A DNA stretch of 64,000 nucleotides, taken from positions 62,001-126,000 of the forward strand of contig JAISPR010000153.1 in assembly GCA_031274765.1 (NCBI GenBank), in the 5' to 3' direction. Below are positions 31,381-49,060 of the stretch, piece by piece. Each line of letters opens with the position of its first letter. Position 1 is the stretch's first letter. The DNA is from Nitrososphaerota archaeon. Lineage in GTDB: Archaea; Thermoproteota; Bathyarchaeia; Bathyarchaeales; Bathycorpusculaceae. Below the pieces are notes generated by a model. The model was not told where the DNA came from. It saw only the letters and a list, made by a program, of their open reading frames with translations, and searched no databases. The position numbers and the translations under genes were made by a program.

Positions 31381-31538
31381 CCTACATTTGACAGTTTGAC
31401 CTAAAACAGTCAAAAATTAAAGTACACTCAGAAAATATTCGCATAATAAGAAAGTTCTTGTAAAAATAACCAAAAACATACAACTGCCTGCAATATAAAT
31501 AATTCAACACATTTTCTCCTCAAACTGCCGAACGTGAG
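31381..31538 (+). repeat. MITE-like element family I copy 1 (158 bp, TSD TTTAGA)
   Basis: cctacatttgacagtttgacc...caaactgccgaacgtgag flanked by TTTAGA at 31375-31380 and 31539-31544. Confidence 0.85.
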
Positions 31539-31594
31539 TTTAGACAAAGAACAGACCAGAGTTTTGCCAGTGTATTTCTACAGAATCAAAAACA

Positions 31595-31723: not shown

Positions 31724-31811
31724 AAAAAAGCCGTTTAGTGTTTGTATATTACTTATGGACACACGGTTTTTAAATGAACATATGATCGAAAACCCACACC
31801 ACAATACACAG

Positions 31812-32110
31812 CCTGATTTCTCAGCATTTTTGTACTATACGCGTATGTGTATTTATTTTAACTTGATTTTGCGAATAATATTTCAATTAAAATATTGGTG
31901 ATGATTGTCGCTATTTTTTACAACACGCATTTTTGTTGTGGGGTGTAATTATACCATACATTATGTGTAAAAATTATGATACAGCCATCATATAAAAAAC
32001 AAGAGTTAACACACAAAAAACGAATATAATAGGACATAATAAATAATGCGTGTTAAAAAGCGACAAATAATTTTCAGCCGCGCACATTACAACTCTGACG
32101 AGAAATCAGG
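31812..32110 (+). repeat. MITE-like element family II, uninterrupted copy (299 bp)
   Basis: Inverted ends CCTGATTTCTC / GAGAAATCAGG; homologous along its length to 46708-47171 minus the nested insertion. Confidence 0.88.
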
Positions 32111-32173
32111 ATACATTTAAATTTCCACTCATATGTGGTTTTGATAATACAAGCACATGAGAGGAAATAAAAA

Positions 32174-32791: not shown

Positions 32792-32829
32792 ACCGTGTAT
32801 TTATGCGAGTTTTCAATTTTTCTACTACA

Positions 32830-32926
32830 GACAACCTCCAAAAGCCCCATTTCAAAAAACCAGGCAACATAGGTACACGGTTTTTAGCAGACAATTTTTA
32901 GAAAAATATGGTTTTCGAGGGCTACC
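32830..32926 (-). repeat. MITE-like element family III (about 97 bp, degenerate)
   Basis: gacaacctccaaaagccccatttcaaaaaaccagg...agaaaaatatggttttcgagggctacc aligns with 40668-40766. Confidence 0.7.
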
Positions 32927-35315: not shown

Positions 35316-35474
35316 CTTACATTCGGCAGTTTGACCTAAAACAGCCAAAAATTAAATCATGCTCAAAAAATATTCGAAAAAATAAGAAAATCATTGTAAA
35401 AATAACTAAAAACACGCAACAATCAGTAATATAAACAATTCAAAATATTTTTTTCCCAAACTACCGAATGTAAG
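35316..35474 (+). repeat. MITE-like element family I copy 2 (159 bp, TSD TAAAAA)
   Basis: CTTACATTCGGCAGTTTGACC...CCCAAACTACCGAATGTAAG flanked by TAAAAA at 35310-35315 and 35475-35480. Confidence 0.9.
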
Positions 35475-35645
35475 TAAAAAGACAAATGTGGAATTAATAA
35501 GAACAGAAATATCGACATACATACATTTTCTACCCTCAAAAATAAGCAGCTGACCAAGAATCATGGCATTATATGTTTATCAACAACTATGATTTCACTA
35601 CCGTCGTTGTTTGAACAATAGCTCGGTCCCCAGTACAAGTGTATA

Positions 35646-35742
35646 GACGACCTCCGAAAACCTATATTTTTCCAAAAATCGTTTGCTAAAAACACTCCAA
35701 CTGTGTTGATTGGTTTTCTGAAATGGGTTTTCGGAGGTTGCC
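35646..35742 (+). repeat. MITE-like element family III (97 bp, TSD TATA)
   Basis: gacgacctccgaaaacctatatttttccaaaaatcg...ttggttttctgaaatgggttttcggaggttgcc flanked by TATA. Confidence 0.8.
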
Positions 35743-37053: not shown

Positions 37054-37386
37054 ACCTGCTTCCGGGTGGTTTGTTAATTTATTGAGCAGGTGTTTTTTCT
37101 GTTAATTACAATGTTTTTAATGATTTAAATTTAAAATATGAGTGTTTAGTTGGTTGGGTAGGTACTTTTGTTTATTTTGCTTCTTAGTTAATATGGGATT
37201 TTTCCCCATGGTACTTATGTGTTTATTTAGAATGGTCAATAAATAACAAGAACAATTCGTACAAGGCGCATATTTTCCATGGATATTGTTTTGTTTTTTA
37301 TTTGGCGTTATTTCCGGGCTGATTTTAGAGCGTCACATAACACGAAATTTTGTATGTGCTCTCAGAGGCATATACATCAATTACAC

Positions 37387-39205
37387 CTGAATGCCGCATT
37401 TTTTAGCGTGACAAAAAATAAGTTAAAGACCTTCAAGACTACCAACAATATCATCCTCAACACCAAACACAGACAAAATCTTCTTCTGCTTCTCAGACAA
37501 CGCCCAAACAAATCTAAACTCATCCCCACCACAAGACATGATCACAATATTTGACAACAAATTAAGCGCCTTACGCAAAGATAAACAATTAACAGATAAA
37601 AACCCAGCCAACCGACTAAGCAAATAAGAACGTAACACACATGCCACAAACACCACAAACACCTTCCCCTCAATAATCTCCTCACTATGCACACACACCC
37701 TCCCACAACTCAAATCCACCCCAATCTGCGTAAACAACCCCTCATCCACATCCTTAGCCCGATAATAATACAAAACATCAGACAAAGAAGACAACATATC
37801 AGTTGAAAACAACAAAAAATAACCCTTCATCGCACGCAACAACTCTACTTTTTGCGTGTCAACCGCATAATCAAACTCCAAATCCCCCACATGCCGCGTA
37901 AGAACAAAATAGGGTTCATAGCGACTCAGGTTCTTTGTTGGATAGTGCTTCAAACCAGCAAGCTCTACTTTTAAGTCCTCAATATAAGCCGACAAATCCT
38001 CACACAACTTGACATGACTAAGTGCATCATAGAACAACAGCACCCGACCCTCAACCCCACAAACCACTGTATCTACCGATATTCCATACAAGTGAGGATA
38101 CAACTCAAGCTCATGAGTATAACTCTCCACTTCACTCCTGTGGGTTACAAGGAGTTGTTGTGAGAGTTTTAGGGAGGGTGGCATGCGAAGAGTAAAGGCT
38201 GCACAACAAGACCTCAGAGTCTTGAGATCTTCCTCACTCCAAAACCTTTCATCCAACACTAGCTTTACACGTTCTATGCCTATGTTTTTTGCATTTGCGA
38301 GCACATAGGACAAATTAGTTTTATCGGTTAGGTTTCCATTGTAACGGTTATAGTAGAGGGGTAGTTTAGTTTGTTCATCGCAAAACATACCTAAATTGAA
38401 TTGGTTTAAATTTTCATGGTAGTTATTGTAATAATGTTCAACACTCATCAGGTTTTGGGAATAATATGATATTGGAGTGACGTCATAATATACGGTGCTG
38501 TTTGTCAGGGATTTTTTTATCCAGTGTTTGAAGAATTCGTGTCGCTGAGCGGGGGTTTGGTTGGCAAATAGGGTGCTGCAGGCGGCGGAGGTGAGGGTGC
38601 GGGTTAGGTTGGTGTGGTTTCTTTGTTGCCAATCATCTATGGTGTCCATGGTGGTGCCTTCTTTTATCATGTAGGCGACTATGGTTAGGATTTCTTGGGC
38701 TTGTTTTTCTCCAAAGGTTTGGGTGAGGGTGTCTGTTAGGCCGATTTGTTGGCTTATTTTTTGGATGAGGTAGGTGTAGCCGTAGTCGTATATGGTTGTT
38801 GGTTTTGGTTGGGTTTGTTGGGTTGGGTAGAGTTGGTAGTAGTTGTTGTTGGGTTGCATTTTGTTTGTTTTGGGGTCGTATTTGCCTATGTTTTTGGCTT
38901 TGCTTCTTGGTTGGCCGTTTTGGTTGCGGTAGTGTTTGGTGTATTTGTAGACGTATTTTTCTGCTTTTTTGCCTGCTGTTTTTATGTGTATTCCTTTGTC
39001 TTTGGGTATGTCTATTAGTGTTTTTGGGAGCGTGGCTGTCACCTTTTTTGTATACGCTAATATTAGCGTATATTGGTTGTATTAAAGGTTTTTGGTTGTT
39101 TTTTGTTTGTTTTTTGTTTGTTTTGTTGGTGTTTTTGTTGTTTTGGTGTTTTTGTTATTGTTTTTGGGGTTTTGTTCTGCCCCCGCTAAAAATTACAGAA
39201 TTCAG
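37387..39205 (-). mobile_element. Insertion sequence with inverted ends and one transposase gene (IS1634-like)
   Basis: Outer ends CTGAATGCCGCATTTTTTAGCGTGACA (left) and CTGAATTCTGTAATTTTTAGCGGGGGCA (reverse complement of right) form an imperfect TIR around the 539-aa transposase. Confidence 0.75.
37423..39042 (-). CDS. Transposase, DDE, IS1634/COG5421-like
   Basis: YYDVTPISYYS, LPLYYNRYNGNLTDKTNLSYVLANAKNIGIERVKLVLDERFWSEEDL, typical of this transposase group. Confidence 0.88.
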   Translation of the reverse strand: MTATLPKTLIDIPKDKGIHIKTAGKKAEKYVYKYTKHYRNQNGQPRSKAKNIGKYDPKTNKMQPNNNYYQLYPTQQTQPKPTTIYDYGYTYLIQKISQQIGLTDTLTQTFGEKQAQEILTIVAYMIKEGTTMDTIDDWQQRNHTNLTRTLTSAACSTLFANQTPAQRHEFFKHWIKKSLTNSTVYYDVTPISYYSQNLMSVEHYYNNYHENLNQFNLGMFCDEQTKLPLYYNRYNGNLTDKTNLSYVLANAKNIGIERVKLVLDERFWSEEDLKTLRSCCAAFTLRMPPSLKLSQQLLVTHRSEVESYTHELELYPHLYGISVDTVVCGVEGRVLLFYDALSHVKLCEDLSAYIEDLKVELAGLKHYPTKNLSRYEPYFVLTRHVGDLEFDYAVDTQKVELLRAMKGYFLLFSTDMLSSLSDVLYYYRAKDVDEGLFTQIGVDLSCGRVCVHSEEIIEGKVFVVFVACVLRSYLLSRLAGFLSVNCLSLRKALNLLSNIVIMSCGGDEFRFVWALSEKQKKILSVFGVEDDIVGSLEGL

Positions 39206-39322
39206 GTTATACAATAAAAGCCTAAATCAATAAAAAGCAAAATTGGCCCTCTAAACACTGTCGTTTTTTAAGATAAATAACATTTTGTTGACCCTATTTC
39301 TATAAATTTTATTTATGGGTTT

Positions 39323-40667: not shown

Positions 40668-40766
40668 ATGTAACCTTTGAAAACCCCATTTCAGAAAACC
40701 AAACAACACAATTGCAGGTTTTCAGCAAAACAATTTTTGGAAAAATATAGGTTTTCGGAGGTTGCC
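40668..40766 (-). repeat. MITE-like element family III
   Basis: tgtaacctttgaaaaccccatttcagaaaaccaa...tttttggaaaaatataggttttcggaggttgcc, inverted relative to the 35646 copy. Confidence 0.75.
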
Positions 40767-46550: not shown

Positions 46551-46707
46551 CCAGATATGAGAACCAAACAGTAACGCATCATTGTGGAAAGGTAAACAAA
46601 TTTTCACTTAAACTCAAGGGTTTCGATAAAATTCACAAGACTACAAAACATACAACAACACATAAAGAAACATACACAACCTGAATTTTTGTCAAAATTT
46701 AATATAT

Positions 46708-47171
46708 CCTGATTTCTCGGCGTTTCTGTACTATATATGTATATGTGTTGCTTTTAATTTGATTTTACTGATAATGTTTCAATTAAAGTGTTGGTGATGG
46801 TTGTCACTATTTTTTACAATACGCATTTTTGTTGTAGGGTGTAATTATATCATACATTATGTGTAAAAATTATGACCTAGTTACTTACATTTGGCAGTTT
46901 GACCTAAAACAGCCAAAAATTAAATCATGCTCAAAAAATATTCGAAAAAATAAGAAAACCATTGTAAAAATAACCAAAAACGCGTAACAACCAGTAATAT
47001 AAACAATTCAAAATATTTTTTTCCCAAACTGCAGAATGTAAATAGTTATCATATAAAAAACAAGAGTTAACACACAAAAAACGAATATAATGGGACATAA
47101 TAAATAATGCGTGCTGAAAAGCGACAAATAATTTTCAGCCGTGTATATTACAACTTTGACGAGAATTCAGG
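46708..47171 (+). repeat. MITE-like element family II, copy interrupted by family I element
   Basis: CCTGATTTCTCG...CGAGAATTCAGG flanked by ATATAT. 464 bp minus (159+6) equals 299 bp, the length of the uninterrupted copy. Confidence 0.9.
46884..47042 (+). repeat. MITE-like element family I copy 3 (159 bp, TSD TAGTTA), nested in family II element
   Basis: Nearly identical to 35316-35474; flanked by TAGTTA at 46878-46883 and 47043-47048. Confidence 0.93.
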
Positions 47172-47341
47172 ATATATGTGACCAGTTATTTGCCAAATTT
47201 TAATGTGTTATTTGTTAGTATGTGTTTAGTTCGCAGATTGTGAAGCAAACTGGTGTTGTGTCGTTATTTGATAAGTAAATGGCCCAGAAATTTAGGTTTA
47301 GTATAAATGAGAAATTAAAGATAAATTTTGCTGAAAACTAA

Positions 47342-47436
47342 GGTGACCTCCGAAAACCCATATTTTCCAAAAATCATCTGAGAAACCCTACAAATATGTT
47401 ACTTGGTTTTCTGAAAGGGTGTTTTCGAAGGTTGCC
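47342..47436 (+). repeat. MITE-like element family III (95 bp, TSD CTAA)
   Basis: ggtgacctccgaaaacccatattttccaaaaatcat...cttggttttctgaaagggtgttttcgaaggttgcc flanked by CTAA. Confidence 0.8.
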
Positions 47437-47729
47437 CTAAATACATACATTGATGTTGGTTATGTTTGTTTTATGTGCAGTTTTATGTGTTGATTGGAGC
47501 ATAAATTTTTATTCACACTGCCAGCATAATTGTATTACATGACAAAATTGCAAGTGTAGCAGACAATATTAACATCATTAATGTTTAAACTGGCGATATT
47601 TATAAAATCAAGTTAAAACCAGTACATTGCATGCAGGGTATAAAACAATGAGAGTTCAGGTTTTAGGGAATTAAAAACAAACCCTCTGTCGAATTTGTGT
47701 AATTTATCCGCTAAAAAAATAGAGAGAAA

Positions 47730-48082: not shown

Positions 48083-49060
48083 CTAACTGGTTTTATGTCC
48101 ACATTCGGGGCAGAATTTACTGTATACGGGGATAGCTTTATTGCAGTTAGGACAAATCATCGTCTGCTGGTTTGGCGGGGTGAGATTGGTTCCACAACTA
48201 GGGCAGAATTTACTGGTTGCGGGCACTTTTTCGCTGCATTTAGGACAGATAATTAGTGTCGCCGCAGGTGCTGCTTGTGGGACATTTTGTTGGTTCATGA
48301 TTTGGGGGATAAGTACCATGCCTGCGCCCATCGCGCCTGAGCCACCGCCTTTGCCAAGGGATTCTGCTGAGCTCTTTAGGGTTTCCATGCGTAATACGTC
48401 GCCGGCTGCGGTGTTGCCAGTTTTGAGCCAAAAGAGACGTTCTCGGTATTCGGGTGTAGTGTCGATGCCTTCAAAGCGAAGATCAGTGAGTTCTACGCCG
48501 ACGCGTTTGAAATAGTCAATAAGAGTATTTTTGACGATAATGGAAGTTTCGGTTAGGCGGGTGAATACGGATACAAGGTCGTAGTGACTGAGTTCGGTGA
48601 TGATTTTTTCATTGAGAAAGCCGCGGAGAAAGCCGTTGACGCTGTCGGTGGTGTAGACTTTTTGTCCACCGATGACTTCGTTAACAAACAGAGTGGGTTC
48701 AGCTACTTTGAACCAGAACTGTCCATATACCTGCAGAGGTGCAAGTTCGGTGGTCTGTGCACGTGTTCCCCATTTGCCAGCAAAGATTTTAGTACTGATG
48801 AACAATACGGTTGCTTTAAATGGTTTGTTACCGCCAAACCCGGCTATTCTTGTCAGTAAACCGGTGAATAGGGGCAGATTTAGGGTGGTTAGGGTGTGTC
48901 GACCGGCTTGGAATACGTCATAAGCCTTACCGTCACGGAAGAATACAGCAATCTCGTATTCGCGCACGATAAGTTGGGCACCCCAGGTTATGTCCTCTTT
49001 GGGGTAGCGCCAGACAATATCGTCTGCACCTGCGTTTGTCCATTCGATAACTTGCGGCAT
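48083..49060 (-). CDS. SPFH/virion-core-like protein (YdjI-type) with two C-terminal zinc ribbons
   Basis: N-terminal WRYPKEDITWGAQLIVREYEIAVFFRDGKAYDVFQAGRHTL and C-terminal CPKCSEKVPATSKFCPSCG, CPNCNKAIPVYSKFCPECG. Confidence 0.88.
   Translation of the reverse strand: MPQVIEWTNAGADDIVWRYPKEDITWGAQLIVREYEIAVFFRDGKAYDVFQAGRHTLTTLNLPLFTGLLTRIAGFGGNKPFKATVLFISTKIFAGKWGTRAQTTELAPLQVYGQFWFKVAEPTLFVNEVIGGQKVYTTDSVNGFLRGFLNEKIITELSHYDLVSVFTRLTETSIIVKNTLIDYFKRVGVELTDLRFEGIDTTPEYRERLFWLKTGNTAAGDVLRMETLKSSAESLGKGGGSGAMGAGMVLIPQIMNQQNVPQAAPAATLIICPKCSEKVPATSKFCPSCGTNLTPPNQQTMICPNCNKAIPVYSKFCPECGHKTS

Follow-up and report, generated by a model that had tools for sequence, protein, structure and literature searches.

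Nested MITEs with 6-bp target-site duplications in a Bathycorpusculum-lineage archaeon: two repeat families probably mobilised by IS1634-type transposases

MITEs are known from archaea but have been little studied (review PMC10969869). The closest described systems are those of Methanosarcina, where a MITE of M. barkeri (247 bp, 23 copies, IR 20, DR 6) has the IS1634-family element ISMba11 as its partner, and one of M. acetivorans (249 bp, 15 copies, DR not recorded) is partnered by ISMac10 (PMC3852290). The MITE pipeline of the same study anticipates nested or 'Russian doll' elements. The IS1634 family itself was split from IS4 partly on the basis of shorter duplications of about 5 bp, while the elements IS1634 and IS1549 carry long and variable duplications of 8-514 bp rather than 6 bp (PMC2266710). 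Several MITE families can load a single archaeal genome, as in Sulfolobus solfataricus, whose SM1-SM4 elements are cited in PMC10969869 with 25-44 copies.

Here, we describe a locus at which one such element lies within another, in a 64,000-nucleotide stretch of DNA (in the following, the window) on contig 49 of an archaeal genome of 2.50 Mb. The assembly is of the MAG type, comprises 170 contigs and has many breaks in the repeats in question. An SPFH-like gene of the window (48083-49060) shares 91-92% identity with its counterparts in Candidatus Bathycorpusculum acetigenerans and Ca. B. termitum; the host, a termite-gut-type archaeon, is therefore of the Bathycorpusculum lineage (Bathyarchaeia). 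A search for MITEs in Bathycorpusculum found no paper in the literature library covered. The two repeat families involved, I and II, are probably non-autonomous MITE families mobilised by IS1634 transposases. Like the Methanosarcina MITEs, they are archaeal elements of 150-300 bp with terminal repeats of 18-20 bp, 6-bp duplications, tens of copies and a putative IS1634 partner; unlike them, they reside in the Bathycorpusculum lineage and have other sequences, family I is about three times more numerous, and its partner is seen only as a decayed copy. The genome resembles that of S. solfataricus, as far as SM1-SM4 are described in the review cited above, in being loaded with several MITE families, whereas partners and sequences differ. 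The nest is a clean, dateable instance of a known phenomenon, IS1634-partnered MITEs with 6-bp repeats already being known in Methanosarcina, and it leaves the understanding of how such elements move unchanged. What it offers is a relative dating, exact to the base, of three successive waves of insertion at a single locus, a likely transposase family for two abundant, unnamed repeat families, and a probable extension of IS1634-partnered MITEs from Methanosarcina to Bathyarchaeia. The two families also account in part for the large number of contigs in assemblies of such genomes.

Table 1. Mobile elements and duplications at the nested locus and at related sites of the window
Feature	Position	Strand	Ends or basis
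Old diverged family II-related relic, host of the young family II copy	46680..47660	-	alignment and blastn; no TSD left (ACACAA / TTTTAG)
Family II target-site duplication, left, ATATAT	46702..46707	.	
Young family II MITE, 299 bp plus 165-bp insertion	46708..47171	+	TIR CCTGATTTCTCGGC / CCTGAATTCTCGTC
Family I target-site duplication, left, TAGTTA	46878..46883	.	
Family I MITE, 159 bp	46884..47042	+	TIR CTTACATTTGGCAGTTTG / TTTACATTCTGCAGTTTG
Family I target-site duplication, right, TAGTTA	47043..47048	.	
Family II target-site duplication, right, ATATAT	47172..47177	.	
Palindromic MITE, about 95 bp, inside the old relic	47342..47436	.	GGTGACCTCCGAAAACC...GGTTGCC; 4-bp TSD CTAA
Family II copy without insertion (empty site)	31812..32110	+	alignment to 46708-47171
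Second family I copy, 95% identical	35316..35474	+	TSD TAAAAA
Third, older family I copy (80%)	31383..31540	+	TSD TTTAGA
IS1634-family insertion sequence, 552-codon open frame	37386..39206	-	TIR CCTGAATGCCGCATTTTTTAGCG / CCTGAATTCTGTAATTTTTAGCG

The structure of the nest follows from a pairwise alignment of 31780-32140 with 46680-47200 (Table 1), which is unbroken save for a single gap of 165-168 columns. The initial annotation had matched the 299-bp copy lengthwise to the 464-bp one and had read the difference as a family I element with its duplication, and it was correct to the base: the two copies align over their full length but for one block, this block consists of the 159-bp element and one extra TAGTTA, and its subtraction gives exactly 299 bp (464-165=299). 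The empty site that it had proposed aligns through the junction, with the qualification that the adjacent bases carry small substitutions (GATACAGYYATCATAT vs GACC-TAGTTA-TCATAT). Once the block is removed, 35/299 positions are different between the two versions of 299 bp, and 30 of these 35 differences are transitions. Fungal RIP, considered as the origin of a C-to-T excess, was dropped; the genome is archaeal, and transitions prevail in both directions.

The insert is a peculiarity of this copy. All 13 other full or near-full family II copies that were aligned, among them 31812-32110 and 12 more from the same genome, and including divergent copies of 73-75%, are uninterrupted at the family I site. 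Because these copies run through the site, the insert is derived and the insert-free state ancestral. That the 165-bp segment was instead ancestral in family II and lost from the other copies has next to no likelihood: no evidence in its favour was found, all 13 are scarless at the site, the segment is found about 75 times elsewhere with its own duplications, and exact excision of the segment together with one repeat would, implausibly, have had to occur in each lineage. In a MAG-type assembly of 170 contigs with many breaks in these very repeats, one might suspect that repeats had been joined into a chimaera, but such an artefact would not yield a matched 6-bp host duplication while leaving the host element continuous to the left and right of it. 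Moreover, another contig (143) carries a second, independent insertion of family I into family II, near family II position 279 and with the duplication AYATTA, and we regard a chimaera as very improbable. Both nests show family I inserted into pre-existing family II copies; the reverse, family II inserted into family I, was not seen among the copies read.

Beyond this locus, family I is widespread. Its terminal inverted repeat CTTACATTCGGCAGTTTG has 153 matches in the genome at up to three mismatches, against two for a reversed control pattern, which corresponds to about 75 copies in 2.50 Mb; at least 40 copies were scored out of 143 candidates in the genome. We collected 55 distinct copies with both flanks present, from the genome itself and its relatives. 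A perfect, unadjusted 6-bp duplication flanks 33 of them, where 0.016 are expected by chance, and seven more match at 5/6 positions, which bears out the earlier claim that family I moves with 6-bp target-site duplications. The duplicated hexamer is biased towards TAWWWA (first base T in 36/44, sixth base A in 40/44). Family I is thus short, non-coding and multicopy, with terminal inverted repeats and, at most copies, target-site duplications, as is characteristic of MITEs. At one further place (L076:1900-1941 on contig G000:C100), two outward-facing family I ends are separated by one TAATTA that serves both, which looks like the entry of another copy into the duplication of the first.

Family II, of about 299 bp, has 34 matches in the genome and shows the same hallmarks: it is short and multicopy, has inverted ends and is flanked by several exact 6-bp duplications (TTATAA, TTAAAA, GTTTAT, ATGTAT and ATATAT). 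Its copies fall into a younger layer with 92-97% identity to the consensus and an older one with 73-75%, while family I copies are mostly 94-98% identical to theirs. Family I and young family II are therefore about equally diverged and overlap in age genome-wide. The proposal that family I transposed after family II had spread accordingly holds at this locus and on contig 143, but not as a rule for the genome.

The locus contains a third layer, which the initial annotation, right about the other two, had missed. The surroundings of the young family II copy align with reversed family II (local alignment score 117, highest score after shuffling 45; 149/230 columns identical), from which it follows that this copy sits in a diverged family II relic; a separate blastn match of the relic spans the insertion point. 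At this locus, the best explanation starts from the old relic of family II on the minus strand, which received the young family II copy at ATATAT; family I then entered this copy at TAGTTA. The palindromic MITE within the relic belongs to a family of its own (GGCGACCTCCGAAAACC...GGTTTTCGGAGGTTGCC), which recurs in the window at 35645-35741, 40669-40766 and ~32820-32920 and of which several copies have 4-bp duplications ending in TA (TATA, TGTA, TTTA, GATA) or the duplication CTAA.

Filled and empty sites form pairs within the genome, and at two loci the corresponding intervals in relatives are much shorter. The two genes that flank the nest lie 1163 bp apart in the window, compared with 229 bp in Ca. 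B. acetigenerans (L199) and ~55 bp in Ca. B. hydrogenotrophicum (L220); the whole nested block is absent from these named relatives, in which its neighbours are conserved. The interval that holds the second family I copy (35316) is ~570 bp long here, compared with 77 bp for its counterpart in genome G012. Among 60 relatives searched, near full-length family I was present in only three congeneric genomes, G026 (95%) as well as G012 and G021 (~80%). The G026 copy at C75 has no alignable counterpart in our genome that could serve as a cross-species empty site.

As to the source of transposition, a likely transposase family is encoded in the window itself, which had been overlooked. The open frame at 37423-38859 matches the NCBIfam model NF033559 (IS1634) with 3.1e-50 and 171.6 bits (cut-off 100), while Pfam returns DDE_Tnp_1 only, below threshold. 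The ends of this element, read by eye, are CCTGAAT[T/G]C...TTTTTAGCG, and a perfect target-site duplication is absent (flanks ATTACA / TTATAC); it belongs to the group with ends resembling those of family II. Other insertion sequences of the genome above the IS1634 cut-off have CCTGAATT-type ends. One of them (L097, on C131) has a perfect inverted repeat, CCTGAATTCCCGAAAAAATTTTAAC, and a 6-bp duplication, TTTGTA; another (L099, on C74, 238 bits) ends in CCTRAATTCT...TATAGTATACA, compared with CCTGATTTCTCAGCATTTTTGTACTATACG in family II, the two being similar by eye but not identical. Because IS1634 ends of this kind resemble its own, family II is most likely an IS1634-derived MITE.

The only long element whose two ends are both similar to those of family I is a decayed IS1634-type element (C27:15274-17740), which has CTTATCCTCGGCAGTTTG and CTGACATTCGGCAGTTC at its borders, correctly oriented, and contains a pseudogene in which three stretches match IS1634 (1.5e-12, 3.1e-5 and 5.9e-13). 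Its ends agree with family I at ~14-16/17 bases, its flanks are mismatched (TTAAAA / TACATA) with no target-site duplication, and it has nothing beyond the ends in common with family I. As a source of family I, it is plausible and the best candidate. The transposase piece had no homologue in 40 relatives, and an intact insertion sequence with family I repeats was found neither in the assembly nor in the relatives searched; the loci newly fetched from four genomes with NF033559 lacked family I ends within three mismatches. Because the 170-contig assembly is often broken in these repeats, the intact partner may be missing from it. About ten solo ends (CTGACATTCGGCAGTT) occur, and several contigs end inside them, as expected if the assembly lost intact copies. 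The solo ends on C3 and C128 were rejected as intact elements, there being no transposase open frame between the paired ends. Equally rejected, as a mobiliser of family I, was the L095/L105 transposase group (550/523 aa), whose own and relatives' copies lack CTTACATTCGGCAG ends; the family I copy beside L105 is an independent MITE with its own duplication.

Since an intact IS1634 element ending like family I was not recovered, and the ends of families I and II are dissimilar (CTTACATTCGGCAG vs CCTGATTTCTCGG), one may suppose that only family II belongs to IS1634, and that an unrelated IS family, also leaving 6-bp duplications, mobilises family I. We consider this unlikely, though deserving of weight: the sole long element with family I-type ends encodes IS1634 fragments, and the solo ends mostly lie beside the same TxxxxA hexamers. 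We thus infer an IS1634 transposase for both families, an assignment that is well supported for family II and moderately supported for family I. In this mechanism, an IS1634-type DDE transposase would act in trans and bind the terminal inverted repeats; the short element would then be excised or copied and joined to a hexamer rich in A+T (TAWWWA in the case of family I) through strand transfer with a 6-bp stagger, the repair of which would produce the 6-bp duplication. Such a scheme, whose steps are drawn from knowledge of IS families, would account for every feature. Transposases of the genome and the window exceed the NF033559 cut-off, and the duplications of both families fit those reported for IS1634 (~5 bp, PMC2266710; DR 6, PMC3852290); unlike IS1634-family insertion sequences, families I and II have no transposase gene.

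Interruptions affect at least six copies of family II: two by family I, one (C154) by a 250-bp MITE with CCTAAATTCTG ends, one (C47) by the palindromic MITE with TGTA/TGTA, one (L029, G000:C163:5198-5325) by a 128-bp segment with a flanking 13-bp repeat, AAAACAAGRGTTA, and one by a 333-bp segment. Three of the interruptions fall at consensus positions ~176-197. That family II copies are preferred landing sites for other mobile elements nevertheless appears quite improbable; if true, MITEs would be safe havens that shape where later waves of elements settle. A segment similar to the 128-bp one follows L102 and interrupts L021.

Further observations concern other elements. A pattern search for the interior of the element with CTGACATTCGGCAG ends gave only four places. 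Next to such ends, a ~115-bp inverted-repeat unit (AGACTGTCYGAAAACTA...TAGTTTTYAGACAGTCTC) recurs at L133, L134 and L138, and the protein fragment beside it is IS630-like by eye. Finally, L239:1-2865 (G000:C132) is a single open frame of >950 aa that joins GLUG-repeat surface-protein sequence (PF07581, 1.6e-13), a hydrophobic segment and, at the C terminus, an IS1634 transposase domain (108.6 bits). By eye, the region of the first catalytic Asp reads IIKIPTS in place of YDVTP, and the domain may be an inactive transposase that was taken over as the tail of a protein.
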